64,000 bases of DNA, from NCBI GenBank assembly GCA_003216465.1, contig QCIU01000005.1, forward strand, positions 62,001 through 126,000. The letters are read 5' to 3'. This DNA comes from Prochlorococcus sp. AG-402-N10. Its GTDB lineage: Bacteria > Cyanobacteriota > Cyanobacteriia > PCC-6307 > Cyanobiaceae. Each line of letters starts with the position of its first letter. Positions within the stretch are counted from its first letter, which is position 1. Position numbers and translations under genes: made by a program. Shown piece by piece: positions 21,734-50,907 of the stretch. A model generated the notes under the pieces. The model ran no database searches, was not told the DNA's origin, and saw nothing but the letters and a program-made list of their open reading frames with translations.

Positions 21734-21784
21734 TTTATATACCTTAAAAAAGATTGCTATGACTATGTTATACCCTATGAATTT

Positions 21785-21803
21785 AGTGGTATTTAGGTGG
21801 TAC
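21785..21803. repeat. Direct-repeat pair, 11-bp period
   Basis: GTGGTA occurs at 21786 and 21797 (AGTGGTATTTAGGTGGTAC). A weaker pair (TAGTAT / CGGTAC, also 11 bp apart) follows at 21847-21863. Candidate recombinase arm-type sites. Confidence 0.6.
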
Positions 21804-21954
21804 AAAACTATTTTTATCCCTGAAATCGTAGTGATACATTAAGCAATAGTATTTTGACGGTACAAAAACTAAATTAAAATGAAATTTAAGAAATTAAAAT
21901 TTTCTTTTCTAAATATTTAAATGCATGCAAAAATAATAAAAAAATAATTTAATT

Positions 21955-22473
21955 ATGTTGAAGTTTTTATTATTCATTTTGATATCTTTATTTCCTATTA
22001 GTGCCTTCGCAATTGAGATCAGTTCACCTGCATTTAAAGATGGAGAAACAATTCCCAAAAAGTATGGATGTAAATACAACGGTGGTAAAGACATATCCAT
22101 GCCAATAAATTTTTCAAACGTCCCAAAAAATGCACAATCAATCGTCCTTATAATGGATGATCCTGATGCAAAAAAAGTCGTAGGAAAAACTTGGGTACAT
22201 TGGATATTGTCAGATATTCCTCCTGATACAAAATATTTAGATGAAGTTAAATATGGAAAAGTTGGTATTGGAGTTACAGGGAAAAACAGTGATAGAAGTA
22301 AAAAGTATTTTGGTCCTTGCCCACCCAAAAATGAACATCAATACAACATCAAAGCTTATTCTCTAAACACAAAATTAGAGAAAAGTTTAAAAGCATTAAC
22401 CCAGGAACAATTTGAGAAATTATATGAAAACCAAATTATCAGTTCATTTATGATTTCTGGTAAATTTAAATAA
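21955..22473 (+). CDS. PEBP family (YbhB/YbcL, Raf kinase inhibitor-like) secreted protein
   Basis: 172 aa. An N-terminal signal peptide (LKFLLFILISLFPISAFA) is followed by the PEBP fold: MDDPDAKKVVGKTWVHWILSDIP holds the DPD and the conserved HW ligand-pocket residues, and YFGPCPPKNEHQYNIKAYSL is the second signature. Bacterial PEBPs are periplasmic or cytosolic and their ligands are largely unknown. It lies alone between two argJ-tail copies, suggesting arrival as element cargo. Confidence 0.9.
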   Translation: MLKFLLFILISLFPISAFAIEISSPAFKDGETIPKKYGCKYNGGKDISMPINFSNVPKNAQSIVLIMDDPDAKKVVGKTWVHWILSDIPPDTKYLDEVKYGKVGIGVTGKNSDRSKKYFGPCPPKNEHQYNIKAYSLNTKLEKSLKALTQEQFEKLYENQIISSFMISGKFK

Positions 22474-22489
22474 TTAAAGTTTCTAATTT

Positions 22490-22508
22490 AGTGGTAAAAA
22501 AGTGGTAT
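22490..22508. repeat. Direct-repeat pair, 11-bp period
   Basis: GTGGTA at 22491 and 22502 (AGTGGTAAAAAAGTGGTAT). It lies 67 nt before the argJ-tail copy at 22557, the same distance as the pair at 24141 from the copy at 24208. Confidence 0.6.
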
Positions 22509-22556
22509 CAACAAAACATCATCTCTCAAAACATATGCCCTGGAATGGATTTGGCG

Positions 22557-22583
22557 TTAGGTAGTATATTCCGAATTGGTTTC
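22557..22583 (-). repeat. Copy of argJ 3' end (ETNSEYTT-stop)
   Basis: On the minus strand it reads E-T-N-S-E-Y-T-T-stop, reproducing the NSEYTT-stop of argJ with several synonymous changes (AAT TCG GAA TAT ACT ACC TAA). No gene leads into it; it is an isolated gene tail, as expected for an attachment-site core. Confidence 0.75.
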
Positions 22584-22630
22584 CACGGACCTTTAAATCC
22601 ATTGGTATAACTAGATTTATGTCTTCAAAA

Positions 22631-22718
22631 TTGGTGTTTTACTGGTGTTATAAAGCAATTTCAACACTATCAAACCTATTCTATTGGTCTCACTAAGTTG
22701 GTGTTATAAAAGTGCTAT
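22631..22718. repeat. Two direct-repeat pairs, each with 11-bp period
   Basis: TGGTGTT at 22632 and 22643; then GTGTTAT at 22701 and GTGCTAT at 22712. Two successive pairs at one element end recur at the guaA locus (49203 and 49262; 46935 and 47006). Confidence 0.55.
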
Positions 22719-22815
22719 ACAGGCACTAATAGTAAGTATTAATTAAACAGTAAGATTTATGCATGTCGAAATTAAGTTAAAAAAATGCTATTTTAAAACA
22801 TAGATTTTTATTTTT

Positions 22816-23112
22816 ATGGAAAGAGAAGGTTATTCGAGTTTAAGTATTACTTCCTTTATCTTTTCAATTTTAGGATTCCTATTTTTATTTGCATGGGCAT
22901 ACGCGGCAGTAATTAATGCTGCAGAAATGACTGTAGGAATTTTAATTATAATTCAATGGACAATGAATTTAATTGGTCTTGGTACAGGAATTCCTTCTTT
23001 ATTCACTAATTCCAAAAAAAGACTATTTGGAATATTAAGTGTTGTGTTCTCAACCAGTACAGGTTTGATAACTCTTTCAATGGTTTTAATTGGTTTATCC
23101 ATTTCATCATAA
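22816..23112 (+). CDS. Small membrane protein, 98 aa, unknown
   Basis: Three hydrophobic stretches (ITSFIFSILGFLFLFAWAYAAVI, TVGILIIIQWTMNLIGLGTGI, and a C-terminal helix) give a likely three-span membrane protein. No family recognised. It is the sole gene of its unit. Confidence 0.65.
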   Translation: MEREGYSSLSITSFIFSILGFLFLFAWAYAAVINAAEMTVGILIIIQWTMNLIGLGTGIPSLFTNSKKRLFGILSVVFSTSTGLITLSMVLIGLSISS

Positions 23113-23288
23113 AATTAAAAAATCTAATCCAATTAAAATATTTTTTTTCGTAAGTTTAGATCAAATATTAAAAATATGACTTTCATAAAAACTTAATTTA
23201 GAAAATTTATTAAGTGGAAATCAAGAGTTAAAACACCGTTATATAAAATTTAAATCACCAAGATCCCCTGCCCTGCGATAGGTTTGAA

Positions 23289-23318
23289 TCAGGTTGTATA
23301 CTCGCTATTAGTATCTGC
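23289..23318 (-). repeat. Copy of argJ 3' end (ADTNSEYTT-stop)
   Basis: The minus strand reads A-D-T-N-S-E-Y-T-T-stop, with AAT AGC GAG TAT ACA ACC TGA against AAT AGC GAA TAC ACG ACC TGA in argJ. This is the closest of the copies at DNA level. No coding frame leads into it. Confidence 0.8.
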
Positions 23319-23413
23319 ACCTCTCTAAAATCGATATAATCGCTTGCAGTCAATGTATTTGTAATTAATTCTTTAAGTTTGAGCATACTATTTCCAATAA
23401 AAATAATTAAAAA

Positions 23414-24115
23414 TTATATGCAATATCCACGTTGCCTATAGTTAAATTGAATCTCATGGTTCCAAACAGGCTGTGAGAGAAAAACTAAAGAAAATTTCAC
23501 TTCTTTATTTTTTAAATCTTTTAAGATTTCAATGAAATCATCAAAATCTTTGAGGATTCCTTTTATATCTTTAGAAGAAATTCCTGAAGATACTTTTTTG
23601 TCAAAATTTGCAATATAATTTTCGATTGAATTTTTTAGGTCCAGTAAAGTTTTTATCCCTTTATCAGGATCATTAGAACTTGGATTATTACGAGCATCCA
23701 AAAAATATGACAATCTTTCAGTACCTTTTGAAATTGGAATTCTCTCTAAAAAATTAATATATTCAAGGATAAAATATCCTGCAGAGAAATTAGTTTTTAC
23801 GTGTGTTTCTGCTTGCCAATTTTCCTTTCCAAAACCATTCCAATAAGTAGGTGGACAAATATTTATATCTGTCTGTATTACTAATCTTTCATATTCACCA
23901 TTAATATCTTCCAATAGGGCACTTATAAACCAATAAATCACCAAAAGGGATACAGGTAAACCAATAAAAAATTGCCAAAGAGGACTTGGTGGTGAAAAAA
24001 TCGCCCACAATGAAAAAATTGCTAATAAAAAGCATATCAACGGAATAGGATTAAATAAATTTGCAAGGACCCTATTCCTTTTTCTACGTTTCTTACTTAA
24101 AAAGACTACATCCAT
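23414..24115 (-). CDS. Membrane protein of unknown function
   Basis: I start it at the internal ATG (MDVVFLSKKRRKRNRVLANL), giving about 233 aa; the track's TTG is 9 nt upstream. A basic N-terminus precedes two membrane spans (PIPLICFLLAIFSLWAIF and LWQFFIGLPVSLLVIYWFISAL). The remaining 170 residues are soluble, with helical charged segments. No family recognised. It occupies its unit alone. Confidence 0.65.
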   Translation of the reverse strand: MDVVFLSKKRRKRNRVLANLFNPIPLICFLLAIFSLWAIFSPPSPLWQFFIGLPVSLLVIYWFISALLEDINGEYERLVIQTDINICPPTYWNGFGKENWQAETHVKTNFSAGYFILEYINFLERIPISKGTERLSYFLDARNNPSSNDPDKGIKTLLDLKNSIENYIANFDKKVSSGISSKDIKGILKDFDDFIEILKDLKNKEVKFSLVFLSQPVWNHEIQFNYRQRGYCI

Positions 24116-24140
24116 TTTTAGCAAAATATATTCATAATTT

Positions 24141-24159
24141 AGTGGTATTTTAGTGGTAT
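24141..24159. repeat. Perfect direct-repeat pair, 11-bp period
   Basis: AGTGGTAT at 24141 and 24152, separated by TTT. It is 67 nt from the argJ-tail copy at 24208. Confidence 0.65.
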
Positions 24160-24207: not shown

Positions 24208-24234
24208 TTAAGTGGTATATTCACTATTAATACA
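24208..24234 (-). repeat. Copy of argJ 3' end (INSEYTT-stop)
   Basis: The minus strand reads C-I-N-S-E-Y-T-T-stop (ATT AAT AGT GAA TAT ACC ACT TAA), against I-N-S-E-Y-T-T-stop in argJ. Isolated from any coding frame. Confidence 0.8.
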
Positions 24235-24716: not shown

Positions 24717-25955
24717 TCAGGTCGTGTATTCGCTATTTATTTCAACGTATTTTTTAGACAAATCACAACCCCAAGCAGTTCCTTTTTCCGTACCAGAATT
24801 AAGATTAAGAGCTATAGATACTATATCCTCAACTAAATATTTACCATTCATTTTTGTTCGCATGTAATTGGCAACTTTGTTGGCATCATATTTATTTAAC
24901 TTGCCCTTTTTCAAAATCTGAAAATTTCCAATATATAAATCAATGACATCTAATTTAAAATCAATCCCAGAATTGCCTGCAGCTGAAATAATTCTGCCCC
25001 AATTGGGATCACAACCGTGAATTGCAGTTTTTACCAGTGAAGAATTACATATAGATTTAGCCATCTTGATTGCATCTGAATTATTCTTTGCTCCCTCAAC
25101 CAATACCTCTAACAAACAATTTGCGCCTTCTCCATCTCTAGCGATATTTTTTGCCAAGCTTTGGCATACAATATCAATTCCTGATTGAATCTTTGATAAA
25201 AATTTCTTATCAATTTTTTTTCCTGAATTTATTGCTAAAAAGGCATCATTAGTACTTGTCTCTCCATCCACCGAAATAGCATTAAAAGACTTTTTAACAG
25301 CAATAGAAATCATCTTATCCCACTCTTCTTTATCAACACCAACATCACATGTAAGAAAGGCTAACATTGTAGCCATATTTGGATAAATCATTCCTGATCC
25401 TTTTGCAAAACCAGATATCTTTACCTTTCTACCTTCAATAAATGTTTCTATAGTTATTTTTTTATCAACTAAATCAGTGGTTAAAATAGCTTCTGCAGCA
25501 TTCTGTAAACTATTTGTTTTTAACGCCTTGACCAAATTAGGTAAATTATCAATTAAATTTTTTATTTGAATGGGTATACCAATTACACCAGTTGAGCACA
25601 TTAAAACTTCTTCTTCATTTATTCCTAATAATTTTGAGACCTCCTTCGTAGCAATCAAAGTATGTTGAATACCAGAATCCCCTATACATGCATTTGCTTG
25701 TCCGGAGTTTATTAATATTGCTCTTATAAGACCTGAAGATTTTTTAATCCTTTGTTCACAAATATCGACACAGGATGCTCGGACTATTGATTGTGTAAAC
25801 AGACCACTACAAATGCTATTTTCTGGAGCTAATATTAAAGCCAAGTCTTTCTTCTTAGAATCCTTTAATCCTGCAGAGATGCCTGCAAAAGAAAAACCAT
25901 CAGGCGTTTCTTCACCATCACTCACAAATGACCAATTAGTCTCAAGCTCAATCAA
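24717..25955 (-). CDS. argJ: Bifunctional ornithine acetyltransferase / N-acetylglutamate synthase
   Basis: A 412-aa Ntn-type enzyme of arginine synthesis that transfers acetyl from acetylornithine to glutamate. The autocleavage site is seen in KGSGMIYPNMATMLAFLTCD, with the conserved Thr that becomes the N-terminus of the beta chain. SVDGETSTND and GCDPNWGRIISAAG are further signatures. Intact. Its last codons (INSEYTT-stop) appear again in isolated copies to the left, which suggests the gene's 3' end is an integration target. Confidence 0.96.
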   Translation of the reverse strand: MIELETNWSFVSDGEETPDGFSFAGISAGLKDSKKKDLALILAPENSICSGLFTQSIVRASCVDICEQRIKKSSGLIRAILINSGQANACIGDSGIQHTLIATKEVSKLLGINEEEVLMCSTGVIGIPIQIKNLIDNLPNLVKALKTNSLQNAAEAILTTDLVDKKITIETFIEGRKVKISGFAKGSGMIYPNMATMLAFLTCDVGVDKEEWDKMISIAVKKSFNAISVDGETSTNDAFLAINSGKKIDKKFLSKIQSGIDIVCQSLAKNIARDGEGANCLLEVLVEGAKNNSDAIKMAKSICNSSLVKTAIHGCDPNWGRIISAAGNSGIDFKLDVIDLYIGNFQILKKGKLNKYDANKVANYMRTKMNGKYLVEDIVSIALNLNSGTEKGTAWGCDLSKKYVEINSEYTT

Positions 25956-34607: not shown

Positions 34608-36383
34608 ATGATAGCCTCTGCGCAAACAAGTAATTCAAAATTGGCACAAATTGATAATAGGTTGTCAGTTCAAACTCAAATATTTGCTGAAGATTCCTGT
34701 GCTATTAGATCCTTAGATTGGGATCGTAGTAGATTTGATATTGAGTTTGGTTTAAGAAATGGAACTACTTATAATAGTTTTATTATAAAAGGTCAAAAAC
34801 AGGCAATAATTGATACTAGTCACGCAAAATTCGGAAAGATATGGTTTGAAGAATTAATTAAAGAAATTGATCCCCAGGAAATTGATTATCTAATTACAAG
34901 TCATACAGAACCTGATCACTCTGGCTTAATAGGAAATCTTTTAGAATTAAATCAAAATATTACTGTTGTTGGTTCCAAATTAGCACTCAAATTTATAGAA
35001 GACCAAATACATGTTCCTTTCAAACGTCTCGAAGTCAAAAGTGGAGAGTTTTTAGATCTTGGAACCAATCCTAGTAGTGGATTAAACCATAATATTGAAT
35101 TTATAAGCGCACCAAATTTACATTGGCCAGATACAATTTTTTCTTATGATCACGGGACTAGTGTTCTATATACATGTGATGCCTTTGGGCTTCATTATTG
35201 TTCTGAAGAATTTTTTGATTCTGATCAGAAAGAAATATATGATGATTTTCGTTTTTACTATGATTGTCTAATGGGTCCAAACGCAAGAAGCGTAATTCAA
35301 GCTATAAAACGCATTGATAAGTTACCTGAACTGAAAACCATAGCTGTTGGTCATGGCCCATTGCTTCAAAATCAAGTAAATTTTTGGAAAGGGAAGTATC
35401 TTGAATGGAGTAGCAATAAGAGTAAAGGAAATGAATTTGTATCCGTTTGCTATATAAGTGATTATGGATTTTGTGATCGACTAAGTCAAGCTATTTCTCA
35501 TGGCATAAGTAAGGCAGATGCACAAGTTCAATTAATTGATTTAAGATCTTCAGATTCCCAAGAGTTGGCAAGCTTAATTTCTGAATCTAAGGCAGTAGTA
35601 ATGCCAACATGGCCAGTTAATGCAGATAATGAATTAAAAGAATCTATTGGTACTCTCTTTGCAGCATTAAAACCTAAACAATTTACAGCAGTTTATGATG
35701 CATTTGGAGGGGATGATGAACCTATCGATTCATTAGCTAGTAAATTAAGAGAATTAGGACAAAAAGAAGCCTTTTCACCTTTAAGAGTTAAAAATATTCC
35801 TGATCCTATTATCTATCAACAATTTGAGGAAGCTGGCACTGACTTGGGACAATTAATTAACAAAAAGAAAAACATTGCATCAATGAAAAGTCTTGATTCA
35901 AATCTAGACAAAGCATTAGGTAGATTAAGTGGAGGGTTATACGTTGTTACAGCCAGTCAAGGCGAAGGTGCAACATTTAGGCAAAGTGCCATGGTAGCAA
36001 GTTGGGTCAGCCAAGCAAGTTTTAGCCCACCTGGTATTACAGTTGCCGTAGCAAAAGATAGAGCAATTGAATCTTATATGCAAGTTGGAGAAGGTTTTGT
36101 AATTAATATCTTGCGTGAAGATAACTATCAAAAAATGTTTAGACACTTTTTAAAAAGATTCGCACCTGGAGCAGATAGATTTGCTGATGTAGATATAGTA
36201 AGCAACATTGCAAATGGTGGGCCAGTCCTGTCTGATTCTCTTGCATTTTTAGATTGTGAAGTTAGATCCAGGTTAGAGACGCCAGATCATTGGATTATTT
36301 ACGGTATAGTTAAAAATGGGCGTGTCTCTGATTTATCCTGTAAAACAGCTGTTCATCATAGAAAAGTTGCCAACCACTATTGA
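34608..36383 (+). CDS. flv3: Flavodiiron protein, Flv3-type (canonical diiron ligands)
   Basis: 591 aa in three parts: a beta-lactamase-like diiron domain with canonical ligands in TSHTEPDHSG, a flavodoxin-like domain from about residue 280 (VSVCYISDYGFCDRLSQAI), and a C-terminal NAD(P)H:flavin reductase domain from about residue 430. With Flv1 it reduces oxygen to water downstream of photosystem I. I call it Flv3-like because its iron ligands are intact, unlike the partner at 37337. Its last codons (KVANHY-stop) seem copied at 37299-37319. Confidence 0.88.
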   Translation: MIASAQTSNSKLAQIDNRLSVQTQIFAEDSCAIRSLDWDRSRFDIEFGLRNGTTYNSFIIKGQKQAIIDTSHAKFGKIWFEELIKEIDPQEIDYLITSHTEPDHSGLIGNLLELNQNITVVGSKLALKFIEDQIHVPFKRLEVKSGEFLDLGTNPSSGLNHNIEFISAPNLHWPDTIFSYDHGTSVLYTCDAFGLHYCSEEFFDSDQKEIYDDFRFYYDCLMGPNARSVIQAIKRIDKLPELKTIAVGHGPLLQNQVNFWKGKYLEWSSNKSKGNEFVSVCYISDYGFCDRLSQAISHGISKADAQVQLIDLRSSDSQELASLISESKAVVMPTWPVNADNELKESIGTLFAALKPKQFTAVYDAFGGDDEPIDSLASKLRELGQKEAFSPLRVKNIPDPIIYQQFEEAGTDLGQLINKKKNIASMKSLDSNLDKALGRLSGGLYVVTASQGEGATFRQSAMVASWVSQASFSPPGITVAVAKDRAIESYMQVGEGFVINILREDNYQKMFRHFLKRFAPGADRFADVDIVSNIANGGPVLSDSLAFLDCEVRSRLETPDHWIIYGIVKNGRVSDLSCKTAVHHRKVANHY

Positions 36384-36506
36384 CCAGACTTTATATCTAG
36401 AATCTTGAGACTCTTTGATATGATTATTTCAAAAAAGAAATAACATATTTTAAAGTAAATTATAAAAATATAAATTATCTTTATAATTAGATTTTTTTCA
36501 TTAATA

Positions 36507-36525
36507 GTTGAAAATGAGTTGAAAA
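36507..36525. repeat. Direct-repeat pair, 11-bp period (left copy)
   Basis: GTTGAAAA at 36507 and 36518, separated by TGA. The same 19 bases recur exactly at 37254. Confidence 0.7.
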
Positions 36526-36685
36526 TTAATCACCATAATCAACCTTTATATGGATTTATTAAAGTTGTATTTAATAAAAATCATTTAATTTAGATCTTCT
36601 AAAAATTTATAAATAAGCGTTTCTTTTAATACAAAAAGTTTTTTATTAAGAATTTATATATTTTAGAAGAGTAAATTATTAAATC

Positions 36686-37096
36686 ATGAGACTAAAAACT
36701 TCAAAGATTATTTTCTTTTCAATAATTCTACTTTTTTGTGGCATTGGGCAAACTTCAGATGCTTTAAATTACTCAAATTATTTACGAATTTATGAAGATT
36801 CAAAAGAACTTTTAGCAAAAGAAGGGGGGGATAGTAAAAAGAGCTCAAGTAAGAAAAGTGGAGATAGTAAAAAGAGCTCAAGTAAGAAAAGTGGAGATAG
36901 TAAAAAGAGCTCAAGTAAGAAAAGTGGAGATAGTAAAAAGAGCTCAAGTAAGAAAAGTGGAGATAGTAAAAAGAGCTCAAATGAGAAGAAACAGTCCAAT
37001 ATTAATAAAGTGGAAAATAATCAAAACGCTATTAAAGAGGCAGCAAAAGAAAGATATGAGATATGGAAAAAAAATAAAAACAAAAATAAAATCTGA
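36686..37096 (+). CDS. Secreted Lys/Ser-rich repeat protein, 136 aa
   Basis: A signal peptide (TSKIIFFSIILLFCGIGQTSDA) leads to a mature part dominated by an 11-residue repeat GDSKKSSSKKS, four full copies plus a partial. The strongly basic low-complexity region suggests binding to polyanions or cell surface; function unknown. A run of seven G at the first repeat (KEGGDS) could slip. The antisense ORFs across it arise from the repeat. Confidence 0.72.
   Translation: MRLKTSKIIFFSIILLFCGIGQTSDALNYSNYLRIYEDSKELLAKEGGDSKKSSSKKSGDSKKSSSKKSGDSKKSSSKKSGDSKKSSSKKSGDSKKSSNEKKQSNINKVENNQNAIKEAAKERYEIWKKNKNKNKI
36827..36980 (+). repeat. 33-bp tandem coding repeat, about 4.6 copies
   Basis: The unit encodes GDSKKSSSKKS and the copies are almost identical at DNA level, suggesting recent expansion and likely copy-number variation. 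It begins in a run of seven G, rare in this AT-rich sequence. Confidence 0.85.
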
Positions 37097-37253
37097 TAAA
37101 ACTTTTCAAAATAATTTTGAAAGATTATCTACTGAAAGCAATTTTGAGAAATATATAGTCCTTTTAAAAAAAGATAGAACCAAGCAATATACTTTATGGT
37201 TATAATCAACAGATAATAAATGTTTTCCAAAGAATTAAATGTTCGGGTCGATT

Positions 37254-37272
37254 GTTGAAAATGAGTTGAAAA
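37254..37272. repeat. Direct-repeat pair, 11-bp period (right copy)
   Basis: Exact copy of the 19 bases at 36507. It ends 47 nt before the last base of the flv3-tail-like stop at 37319. Confidence 0.7.
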
Positions 37273-37298
37273 CCTTTTTCATCCCTGTGGTGGGAAAG

Positions 37299-37319
37299 AA
37301 GGTAGGTATTCACTATTAA
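37299..37319 (+). repeat. Probable copy of the flv3 3' end (KVGIHY-stop)
   Basis: Reads AAG GTA GGT ATT CAC TAT TAA against AAA GTT GCC AAC CAC TAT TGA at the end of flv3. CACTATT is exact; the upstream bases are diverged. It lies 17 nt before the flv1 ATG. Confidence 0.5.
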
Positions 37320-37336
37320 ATAATAAATCTTTGAAG

Positions 37337-39139
37337 ATGTCAGAAATTAATACAAGTTTACTTTCAGAAAATATATACTTTTCAAAATTTGAAATTACTA
37401 AGAATTTTACTTGCGTCAGATTTCTTGATCAAAATAAAGAAAGATTTGAGCTTGAATTTAACCTGGAGAAAGGAACTTCTTATAATACCTTTTTCATCAA
37501 AAGTAATGCAGAACTGTTCATTATTCATCCACCTGAAAAAGGATATTCAAAAGCAATTAATAAAATAATCTCTACCTTCCTTGATCAATATGAATTAAAT
37601 AAAATTAACATCATTACTGGGCATATAAATCCTAAAATTATTGAAACAATAAAGAGTATCAGTACTCAATTCCAAAATTTAACTATCACATGTTCGAATC
37701 CAGGCTTTAAACTTATCAGCGAGCTTTGGAATCAAAAAAATCCAAATTCAACAAATTTTATTGACGTTCAATTACCTATAATCAACGTTATAAAAAAAGA
37801 ACTTAGTTTAGAACTAGAAAATACTTCATTAGAACTTATTCCTGTACCAACCGCACGATGGCCTGGCGGATTAATCGTCTATGAATGTAATCAAGAAATA
37901 CTATTAAGTGAAAAAATTTTTTCTGCTCACATAGCAACTGAAGACTGGTCGGAGAGTAACAGAATAAGTACGGAAATTGATAGAAAGCATTTTTATGATT
38001 GTCTTATGGCACCAATGTCAAATCAAATTGTATCAATAGCGGAAAAAATTTCTGAATTGGATATTAAAACTATCGCTCCACTCCACGGTCCCGCAATTGA
38101 ATATAGCTTAAAAAGTTTTGTCAATGACTACATTAGATGGGGAGAAAATCTTTCAACAAATAATCCTAAAATTGCCTTAATATATGCTAGTGCATATGGC
38201 AATACAGCTTCAATAGGCGATGCTTTAGCAAAAGGTATCAATAGAACTTCAGTAGAAGTTGAAAGTATTAATTGCGAATTTACCTCTAATGATGTTCTCA
38301 TAAAATCTATTCATGATGCAGATGGCTATCTAATAGGATCGCCTACTTTGGGTGGACATGCTCCAACTCCGATAGTAAGTGCTCTTGGAACTTTATTATC
38401 AGAGGGTAATAGAGATAAACCAGTGGGCATATTCGGTAGTTTTGGATGGAGTGGAGAAGCAATAGATTTGCTTGAAACAAAATTAAAAGATGGTGGTTTT
38501 AAATTTAGTTTTGATCCAATAAGAATAAAATTTAGTCCTAATAAACCAAAAATTAAAGAGCTAGAAGAAATTGGTACTCATTTTGGAAGAAAAATTTTAA
38601 AAAAAGCAAAACAAAAAACTAGAAAATCTGATACTGGCATGATATCTAGTAAAACCGATCCAACATTGCAAGCTTTAGGAAGAGTACTGGGTTCACTATG
38701 TGTTCTTACTGCCTCAAAAGGAAAAGATGAAAATAATGTTAAAGGGGCAATGCTTGCATCTTGGGTTAGCCAAGCAAGTTTTTCTCCTCCTGGATTAAGT
38801 ATTGCAGTTGCAAAAGATAGATCAGTGGAATCACTGCTACAAATAGGTGACTATTTCGCCTTAAGTATTCTTAGCGAAAAAGATTTCAGAGAGCCTTTAA
38901 AAAGGTTCACAAAACCTTTTTCACCAGGCGAAGATCGATTTGAAGGCTTAAATATTGAATACACACCTAACCAGCAAGTAATTATTCCTGAGTCTTTAGC
39001 CTGGTTAGATGCTTCTGTAAAAGAAAGAATGGAATGTGGAGATCATTGGGTAATATATGCTGAGGTTTTACACGGCAATATATTAAAATCCGATTGTCTT
39101 ACCGCTGTTCATCACCGAAAGAGTGGAGCAAACTACTGA
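37337..39139 (+). CDS. flv1: Flavodiiron protein, Flv1-type (non-canonical ligands)
   Basis: About 600 aa with the same three-part layout as the upstream paralogue. The diiron motif is degenerate (TGHINPKIIET instead of HxExDH), as in cyanobacterial Flv1. The flavodoxin part is seen in LIYASAYGNTASIGDALAKG, and the flavin reductase part has ALGRVLGSLCVLTASKG. I prefer the ATG at 37337 to the track's TTG at 37331. Flv1 and Flv3 probably act together. An accessory gene now separates it from flv3. Confidence 0.88.
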   Translation: MSEINTSLLSENIYFSKFEITKNFTCVRFLDQNKERFELEFNLEKGTSYNTFFIKSNAELFIIHPPEKGYSKAINKIISTFLDQYELNKINIITGHINPKIIETIKSISTQFQNLTITCSNPGFKLISELWNQKNPNSTNFIDVQLPIINVIKKELSLELENTSLELIPVPTARWPGGLIVYECNQEILLSEKIFSAHIATEDWSESNRISTEIDRKHFYDCLMAPMSNQIVSIAEKISELDIKTIAPLHGPAIEYSLKSFVNDYIRWGENLSTNNPKIALIYASAYGNTASIGDALAKGINRTSVEVESINCEFTSNDVLIKSIHDADGYLIGSPTLGGHAPTPIVSALGTLLSEGNRDKPVGIFGSFGWSGEAIDLLETKLKDGGFKFSFDPIRIKFSPNKPKIKELEEIGTHFGRKILKKAKQKTRKSDTGMISSKTDPTLQALGRVLGSLCVLTASKGKDENNVKGAMLASWVSQASFSPPGLSIAVAKDRSVESLLQIGDYFALSILSEKDFREPLKRFTKPFSPGEDRFEGLNIEYTPNQQVIIPESLAWLDASVKERMECGDHWVIYAEVLHGNILKSDCLTAVHHRKSGANY

Positions 39140-46934: not shown

Positions 46935-47025
46935 GCAATAAACTGGCAACAAACTTACTAAATGAAATCGTAGTTATATTGTCATTTTTTCTTCATGATT
47001 TTCCCACAACAAACTCGCAACAAAC
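46935..47025. repeat. Two direct-repeat pairs, 11-bp period (CAACAAAC type)
   Basis: GCAATAAAC/GCAACAAAC at 46935 and 46946; ACAACAAAC/GCAACAAAC at 47006 and 47017. The second starts 59 nt from the guaA-tail copy at 47065. The unit shares this arm type at both ends (46306). Confidence 0.65.
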
Positions 47026-47064
47026 TGCAAGAATTAGGATATGACTACACTTTGACCCTACGAT

Positions 47065-47130
47065 TTATTCCCACTCAATGGTTCCACCCAATTTTGATGC
47101 TTCAAAGTCATTGATATCATTAACTTCTTC
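47065..47130 (-). repeat. Copy of guaA 3' end, about 20 codons (SKLGGTIEWE-stop)
   Basis: The minus strand reads VNDINDFEASKLGGTIEWE-stop; intact guaA ends [19 protein letters not shown]-stop, 10 of 19 identical and in register. The DNA is most alike in the last 20 bases. The short ORF reported at 47058-47243 crosses this in another frame and is not a gene. Confidence 0.85.
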
Positions 47131-49202: not shown

Positions 49203-49281
49203 TGACAAACCCTTGACAAATAGAGGGGTGTAATCCCAGTATTACCCTTACTATCTCATACGTGACAAACTCGTGACAAAC
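49203..49281. repeat. Two direct-repeat pairs, 11-bp period, beside guaA
   Basis: TGACAAAC/TGACAAAT at 49203 and 49214; GTGACAAAC exact at 49262 and 49273. The second starts 59 nt from the guaA stop. The block is homologous to 45265-45344. Confidence 0.75.
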
Positions 49282-49320
49282 CCCAAAAATGAGGATATAA
49301 CTACAATCTGACCATATAAC

Positions 49321-50907
49321 TTATTCCCACTCAATTGTTCCTGGAGGCTTACTAGTAATATCGAAAACAACCCTATTTACCTGAGCTACTTCATTAACAA
49401 TTCTATTAGAAATTCTTTCTAGAGTTTCGTAAGGAATTCTTGACCAATCTGCCGTCATACCATCTTCGCTTGATACGCATCGTAATACTATCGGCCAAGC
49501 ATAGGTTCTTTTATCCCCCATAACCCCTACAGTCTTTACAGGTAGAAGAACTGCAAAAGCTTGCCAAATATCATTATAAAGACAAGCTTTTTTTATTTCA
49601 TCTCTTACTATCCAATCTGCATCTCTCAAACAATTTAGTTTTTCATTAGAAACTTCACCCAAGATTCTTATTGCTAAACCAGGGCCCGGGAATGGATGTC
49701 TTTTAATAATTTCATCTGGTAATCCAAGAGCTTTTCCAAGTTTCCTAACTTCATCTTTAAAAAGTTTTCTTAATGGTTCAACTAATTTAAATTGCAAATC
49801 TTTTGGTAAACCTCCCACATTATGATGACTTTTTATTTTTACTGCGATTCGCTCACCGGTCTTCGGATCTAAATTTGTTCCTGCGCTCTCAATAACATCT
49901 GGATAGAGAGTCCCTTGAGCCAAATATTGGAAAGGACCTAATCTGTTACTCTCCTCCTCAAAAACTCTAATAAATTCCCCACCAATAATCTTTCGTTTTT
50001 CTTCTGGATCAGTTATTCCATTTAATTTAAGAATAAATCTTTCCCTAGCATTGATATATTCAACTTTTATATCAAATTTTTTATCAAAAAATTCCATTAA
50101 AAATTCAGGTTCACCTTTTCTCATAAAACCTTGATCTATAAACATACATGTAAGCTGTTTACCAATAGCTTTGTTGAGAAGAAAAGCAAGGGTTGATGAA
50201 TCTACTCCACCAGAAAGAGCAAGTAAAACTTTCTTATCTCCTACTTGTTCCTGAATTCTTGGAATTGTTTCCTCTAGGAAAGTTTCAGTAGTCCAATCGG
50301 CTTTACATTTGGAAATAGAATAAACAAAGTTTTTAATTACAGTCATTCCAAATTCTGAATGAATAACTTCAGGATGAAATTGAACACCAAATAATTTTTT
50401 TTGTTTATTTGATATTGCAGCATGAAGTGTATTTTCCGTATGAGCAATTTGAAGAAATCCCTCAGGTAAATTATTGATAGAATCACCATGGCTCATCCAC
50501 ATAATCGATTTATCTTTCACACCAGCGAGTAAATCACTTTCGCAATCAAGATTTATTGGTGCTCTACCGTATTCAGCTTTATTTCTTGCTTGAATTACAG
50601 TACCTCCTAAATCTCTAACCATTAATTGCATTCCATAACATATACCTAATACTGGAATGCCTAAATTAAATATCTTTGCATCACATTTAGGGGCATTATT
50701 CTCATATACAGAATTTGGGCCGCCACTTAAAATAATTCCTTTAGGGTTTATATTCTGTATCTCTCTAATAGAAATAAAGTTACTAACTACAAGAGAAAAT
50801 ACATTTGCTTCCCTTATTCTTCTTGCAATTAATTCAGAATATTGAGATCCAAAATCTAATATTAATATTGAGGGATCTCTCTCTTTTTTTAATAATTTTT
50901 TACTCAT
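49321..50907 (-). CDS. guaA: GMP synthase (glutamine-hydrolysing)
   Basis: 528 aa, standard. The N-terminal class I amidotransferase has [10 protein letters not shown] (catalytic Cys) and GVQFHPEV. The ATP-pyrophosphatase has [13 protein letters not shown]; the C-terminal dimerisation domain ends [10 protein letters not shown]. Converts XMP to GMP. The 3' end is intact, but up to 20 codons of it appear in diverged copies at 46225, 47065 and 48112, which suggests this end is an integration target. Confidence 0.98.

Follow-up and report, generated by a model that had tools for sequence, protein, structure and literature searches.

How flexible genes are gained by the streamlined genomes of Prochlorococcus is an open question, and the integrative elements known in this genus sit at tRNA genes. 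The region between flv3 and flv1, a core photoprotection pair, raises this question at a protein-coding locus: an accessory gene lies between the two, with identical repeat pairs on either side. We analyzed this region in a 64,000-nucleotide window of the Prochlorococcus sp. AG-402-N10 genome (hereafter the window; coordinates are positions within it) and compared it with 266 genomes of the genus, which are mostly incomplete single-cell or metagenome assemblies.

All features of the site lie on the plus strand. According to the list of open reading frames and domain matches, flv3 (591 aa) occupies 34608-36383 and its downstream neighbor flv1 occupies 37340-39139, with its ATG at 37340; the domains found (ODP/Lactamase_B, Flavodoxin and Flavin_Reduct) are consistent with these identities. 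Alignment with empty sites, together with a breakpoint common to all occupied relatives, places the putative attL core at the 3' end of flv3 (AGAAAAGTTGCCAACCACTATT, 36360-36381). The putative element itself covers 36382-37318 (0.94 kb), and the only part of flv3 that it replaces is the stop codon, which is TGA in the window versus TAG or TAA in empty relatives. It begins with a left terminal segment (TTGACCAGACTTT...TTTGATATGATT..., 36382-36506) that is conserved in an alignment of nine left ends, followed by a putative left arm-type repeat pair, GTTGAAAATGA-GTTGAAAA, with an 11-bp period (36507-36525). Next come a cargo gene of 136 aa (36686-37096) and, within the right end and approximately 130 bp upstream of flv1, an outward-facing -10-like box, TATAAT, that may act as a promoter (37201-37206). 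A putative right arm-type pair identical to the left one (37254-37272) and a candidate attR core (37296-37318), which terminates in CACTATTA and resembles the flv3 3' end in degenerate form, complete the layout. An Rfam search of this site gave no match.

The repeat pairs are unlikely to have arisen by chance. The 19-mer GTTGAAAATGAGTTGAAAA occurs at 36507-36525 and 37254-37272 with zero mismatches, as the initial annotation had reported for an exact repeat of 11-bp period, and a search of the 1.56-Mb genome detected no further copies beyond these two. The accompanying claim of a single gene between the copies also held, the 136-aa reading frame being the only one there. With a 33-bp coding tandem repeat excluded, 19 nt is the length of the longest exact direct repeat in 36384-37330, and none of 1000 dinucleotide shuffles reached it (shuffle maximum, 17).

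The initial annotation had further pointed to flv3-flv1 adjacency in relatives without the gene and to a breakpoint at CACTATT, and both were borne out across the genus. The searched flv3 3' end is present in 216 of the 266 genomes, and 131 of the 266 have flv3 followed by flv1 after a gap of 20-25 bp; because one of these matches (G013) is in fact the right end of an insert (attR), 130 sites are counted as empty. From the occupied sites, 55 inserts of 309 to 5983 bp were extracted with both flanks. All 55 start directly after the CACTAT of flv3 (or its variants CATTAT and CACTAC), and a stop codon supplied by the insert comes next (TGA in 26, TAA in 19 and TAG in 10). Since the element brings a new stop codon, the Flv3 protein stays unchanged and intact, always ending in NHY. 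The accessory gene is not universal: homologs were found in only four of the 266 genomes, two of them at the flv3 site, including G080.

A sequence model of the right end, trained on eight flv3-site elements and applied with strict filters that make its counts lower bounds, matched at least 58 of the 266 genomes, and 57 of these 58 matches lie at the flv3 locus. With nearly all copies at one locus, the right ends give no sign of movement to other places. The only copy away from flv3 (L119 6082-6160 in G101) is partial and adjoins a TPR-repeat gene and CCTGACACAA repeats. Occupancy was also mapped on an flv3 tree built with the last 30 nt of the gene removed, which cannot separate gain from loss. 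It changes 16 times, at least 12 of them on well supported branches, compared with a mean of 17.8 for shuffled labels. As this is close to the random expectation, the occupied or empty state appears to turn over quickly; for example, two sisters only 1.4% apart differ, G003 being empty and G067 carrying a 4.4-kb insert.

The two edges of the window element were then compared with each other. Between the flv3 end and the flv1-side edge, CACTATTA matches at 8/8 positions, and the 18 nt upstream match at 7/18 (p about 0.30, chance level). Thus, of the likeness between KVGIHY before flv1 and KVANHY at the flv3 end that had been noted earlier, the part over CACTATTA stands, and the peptide resemblance is not significant in the window alone. 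The same upstream comparison in integrase-bearing relatives gives 13/18 matches in G066 and 12/18 in both G177 and G067 (p ≤ 0.0025), and the right edge of G177 reads GGAAAGTCACCAATCACTATTA versus AGAAAAGTTGCTAATCACTATTA in flv3. Because the resemblance runs longer in these relatives, the right edge of the window element is taken as a degenerate core copy, and CACTATTA is best read as the att core. In their overlap region, attL and attR differ from each other.

Junctions between elements bear on the same point. In G011, a small cargo element directly follows an element whose arms are of the G287 type. Only one core, AAAGTTGCTATGCACTATT, stands between the right end of the upstream element and the left end of the cargo element, and the contig stops short of any integrase gene that the upstream element may have. 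This arrangement has the appearance of tandem accretion, which would set the left boundary of the cargo element independently of flv3. A different kind of joint is seen in G080, which shares the cargo module of the window (82.9% identity over 818 columns). The match stops exactly at the arm repeat, beyond which G080 continues with the interior of another element (93.8% identical to G234), starting from that element's left arm. The composite in G074 is built in the same way. In both cases the arm repeats look like the joints, which could reflect either short-homology recombination or a site-specific activity.

The larger inserts encode a tyrosine recombinase of approximately 490-507 aa, whose gene starts 180-280 bp inside the flv3-side end. 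Seven genomes have it, namely G177 (AG-347-I21), G066, G287, G235, G264, G067 (MIT 9314) and G165, in elements of 3.1-6.0 kb; the gene is intact in six of them and broken by stops and frameshifts in G165. Genus-wide, recombinases with 41% or more identity to the G177 protein are always located at the flv3 3' end, and more distant ones (27-31%) are located away from flv3. The protein matches Phage_integrase (PF00589) in Pfam just above the cut-off, as well as the phage integrase families phrog_1 and phrog_216, and is only distantly related to curated families. In the alignment, catalytic-type motifs could be assigned by eye (R in GCR, K in SKTGRSR, R in SARH and Y in TYSH), with two histidine positions replaced. 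Its predicted fold has low overall confidence (pLDDT 61, pTM 0.31); all Foldseek matches of this model with E ≤ 0.001 are tyrosine recombinases, Cre and Tn1549 Int, and a sequence-profile search of the PDB with the recombinase gave no match. The N-terminus of the model consists of beta-strands plus a helix, the type known for arm-binding domains (PMC8138268), so that an arm-binding N-terminus is predicted. No related integrase was found in viral contigs, and the public records matching a related recombinase are from Prochlorococcus or uncultured Synechococcaceae. The G177 and G066 elements also encode a fusion of ParB_N and a DNA methylase and proteins with HUH-like motifs (HSHLYLG and HQHLYIY, read by eye), suggesting autonomous replication.

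The window element contains no recombinase gene, and a genome search detected no member of the flv3-site subfamily in the window genome. The sole PF00589 match of that genome was considered as a helper integrase and rejected; it adjoins a cobO-like gene and does not belong to this subfamily. In G034, the recombinase is reduced to its N-terminus. On sequence comparison, a decay series is apparent, leading from the intact genes of G066 and G177 through the broken copy of G165 and the N-terminal remnant of G034 to the cargo-only elements.

We then asked what the repeat pairs might do. Their position, 40-125 bp inward of the breakpoints, and their resemblance to accessory (arm-type) sites led us to reject them as the recombination points themselves. 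The repeat unit, GTTGAAAA, recurs at 11 bp: perfect 8/8 unit pairs at this period occur in 17 of 55 left ends and 8 of 55 right ends, and among the other periods tested (8-15) a perfect pair was found once at period 9 and never at the rest. In most elements, 85-87 bp separate the right pair from the flv1 ATG. The distance of the left pair from the edge is 67-70 bp in the majority of elements with a recombinase and approximately 121-132 bp in those with cargo only. G177 and G066 have AGTTGAAAATGAGTTGAAA, the window's own repeat sequence, at both element ends, and G287, whose recombinase is 53% identical, has TGTGATGAAACTGTAATGA and TGTAATGACAATATAATGA at the matching positions. When left-right arm identity was scored over the 55 elements, most shared one consensus, with the best pair often one base off register. 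Some small elements (G004 type) have neither a recognizable left arm pair nor a clean right core. Given the recombinase at the flv3-side end, the window pair in G177 and G066 and a different pair in G287, the 11-bp repeats are best read as arm-type integrase sites. Since relatives have such inserts with the integrating enzyme still present, the pairs in the window are most likely docking sites of that enzyme. Direct repeats that come in pairs to either side of an att core are a hallmark of integrase arm sites. In the attP of cluster J mycobacteriophages, for instance, pairs of direct repeats of approximately 10 bp lie on either side of the core and are ascribed to the N-terminal domain of the integrase (PMC3706429).

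The cargo is diverse. The window protein, which the initial annotation took to be secreted, is hydrophobic at its N-terminus, contains a Lys/Ser/Asp repeat, (GDSKKSSSKKS)n, and gave no convincing match to Pfam. A 133-aa homolog with this type of repeat (L143, G235:C8:33280-33666) is encoded outside the flv3 site, beside a putative polysaccharide-export gene. Other cargo at the flv3 site includes glycine-zipper and HNH proteins and, by eye, MORN-like or TPR-like proteins. The small RNAs Yfr10 and Cyano-1 were also detected inside flv3-site elements (L035 2393-2471 and 2560-2629; L042 750-816), which indicates that conserved cyanobacterial RNAs travel here as mobile cargo. In G004-type elements (L005, L020, L041 and L039), a conserved cargo that recurs in many elements combines a GAGGGCATTTNTTTGCCCTC hairpin with a long stretch of non-coding DNA and an ORF of approximately 48 aa (MKLITPFTILNQNFHEIDLIRDAM...).

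Besides the repeats, the right ends share a -10-like hexamer facing flv1, located 115-160 bp upstream of it in 53 of 55 elements compared with a background of 15% per equal-length window. As the flv3 transcript would no longer reach flv1 across an insert, the box may serve to restore expression of flv1; in a circular form of the element it may face the integrase.

Taken together, precise insertion, common ends, integrase-bearing relatives at the same site with arm pairs at both ends, and tandem accretion make it very probable that 36382-37318 belongs, as a member with cargo but no integrase, to a group of small integrative elements that target the 3' end of flv3 via a dedicated tyrosine recombinase. 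Its order, attL, arms, one gene, arms and attR, is best read as that of a derivative without integrase. In the proposed mechanism, CACTATT(A), present at both edges, would be the att core, and the two GTTGAAAATGAGTTGAAAA pairs would act as arm-type sites to which the recombinase binds through its N-terminal domain. Upon insertion, the element would provide flv3 with a new stop codon and flv1 with a promoter-like box. Forms reduced to cargo would be mobilized by the recombinase, either in trans or through accretion. In the integrated state, the outward box would drive flv1, and in a circle it would drive the integrase. Without the arrival of a helper, the window copy probably cannot move. A bolder version, which we regard as rather unlikely, is a cassette system at flv3 that is integron-like without an integron, in which the 19-bp arm pairs would be both integrase docking sites and joints for fusing or exchanging cargo (genes and small RNAs), and the right-end promoter would drive flv1 in the integrated state and the integrase in the circle.

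Other explanations have to account for the same observations. If the interval were an ancestral variable spacer, with contents swapped or lost by homologous recombination at the conserved flv3/flv1 flanks and ends and with no recent site-specific integration, one would understand why the right end is almost limited to the flv3 locus, why occupancy does not track the flv3 tree, and why the joints of two composites coincide with the 19-bp repeats, an outcome expected of short-homology recombination. However, a recombinase at exactly the flv3 site in seven genomes, the single att core at the G011 tandem junction and the precise empty sites in about 130 genomes argue against it, as do arm pairs that vary between elements yet match at the left and right ends of a given element (judged from G000, G177, G066, G187, G287 and G034/G165 only), and we consider a spacer improbable. 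Nevertheless, integration for arrival and homologous exchange for reshuffling may both be at work.

Direct repeats spaced by 11 bp, one helical turn, are typical of response-regulator sites, and a conserved -10-like box lies approximately 50 bp upstream of the right pair; the pairs might thus be operators for the cargo gene and flv1 rather than recombination sites. This is very improbable, given that they occur at both ends whatever the cargo, even in elements with only an integrase and replication-like genes, and are unique to the element within the window genome. Autoregulation of the integrase at these pairs would be compatible with the integrative-element reading. Another kind of transposon (IS200/IS605-type or MITE) with a preference for a CACTATT target can hardly be entertained: the small size and the hairpin-like inverted repeats seen by inspection near some right ends would suit it, but the elements have a single genomic target, larger members carry a tyrosine recombinase, and no IS200/IS605-type transposase was present among the ORFs read.

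The integrative-element reading points to a second route of gene gain in Prochlorococcus, in which small elements are aimed at the ends of protein-coding genes, here inside the flv3-flv1 pair. Cargo-only copies far outnumber integrase-bearing ones (about 50 versus 7 genomes), and a defined 22-bp target, paired arm sites and a named isolate with an intact copy (MIT 9314) are now in hand. The initial annotation had also suggested that the 3' ends of several core genes are used, which is borne out in part by a guaA duplication in the window and a trmD-side recombinase in G170. For guaA, on the minus strand, a duplicate of the 3' end lies at 47009 (47009-47085 and 49265-49341), with adjoining TGACAAACTCG-TGACAAACC pairs of 11-bp period around an island of TPR genes; the layout appears to match that of the flv3 site, here at the end of a second protein-coding gene. 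In G170 (L138 1370-2964), a recombinase 31% identical to that of G177 starts 76 bp past the trmD stop codon, apparently a further case of a protein-coding 3' end served by a recombinase clade of its own. Pairs of the TTTAGTGGTATTTTAGTGGTA type occur three times around accessory genes by the 3' end of argJ (21780-24158 and 24700; argJ, 24717-25955, minus strand), and GTATTCACTATTA is also present near 24216; argJ is a possible third target gene.

With regard to known systems, the flv3 elements have features expected of integrative elements, namely precise absence in 130 empty sites and the att core CACTATTA at both edges; a tyrosine recombinase of its own is absent from the window element and present intact in six same-site relatives. 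For excision and integration by the recombinase, the G011 tandem junction gives an indirect hint. Tyrosine-integrase genomic islands are known in the protein-coding genes guaA, dusA and trmE. As in these islands, the att core of the flv3 elements lies within the target gene, which is restored or left intact after insertion; unlike theirs, the flv3 recombinase is only distantly related to curated families. The direct-repeat pairs on both sides of the core are shared with cluster J mycobacteriophages, although the flv3-site sequence differs and its role in binding is putative. In the literature searched, we found no flv3 or other flavodiiron gene described as an integration target in Prochlorococcus, the original tycheposon paper aside, where protein-coding targets are possible.

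CIMEs and microCIMEs are decayed elements that keep attL and attR and have lost their recombination genes, with the 3' ends of fda, rpsI and rpmG among their targets; they undergo tandem accretion with an intact element and derive by definition from conjugative or mobilizable elements (PMC7563491). Like them, the window element keeps its att sites without recombination and transfer genes. As regards accretion, an integrase-type right end is joined in G011 to a cargo element, on a contig that ends before any integrase gene. Unlike in CIMEs, the helper at the flv3 site would be a small integrase/replication element rather than a conjugative parent; no relaxase or T4SS family was recognized among the few proteins scanned from intact flv3 elements. 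Tycheposons, as summarized in PMC10872708 from Hackl et al. 2023, measure 4-200 kb and are bordered by one of seven tRNA genes. By that summary, they share with the flv3 elements the Prochlorococcus host, a tyrosine recombinase, cargo and site-specific insertion at a gene end, whereas all 55 flv3 elements target the 3' end of a protein-coding gene instead of a tRNA gene, and most are 0.3-3 kb without a recombinase, the window element (0.94 kb) being below the tycheposon size range. Thus, judging from its organization, the flv3 element resembles tycheposons and CIMEs in how it would work and falls within the definition of neither.
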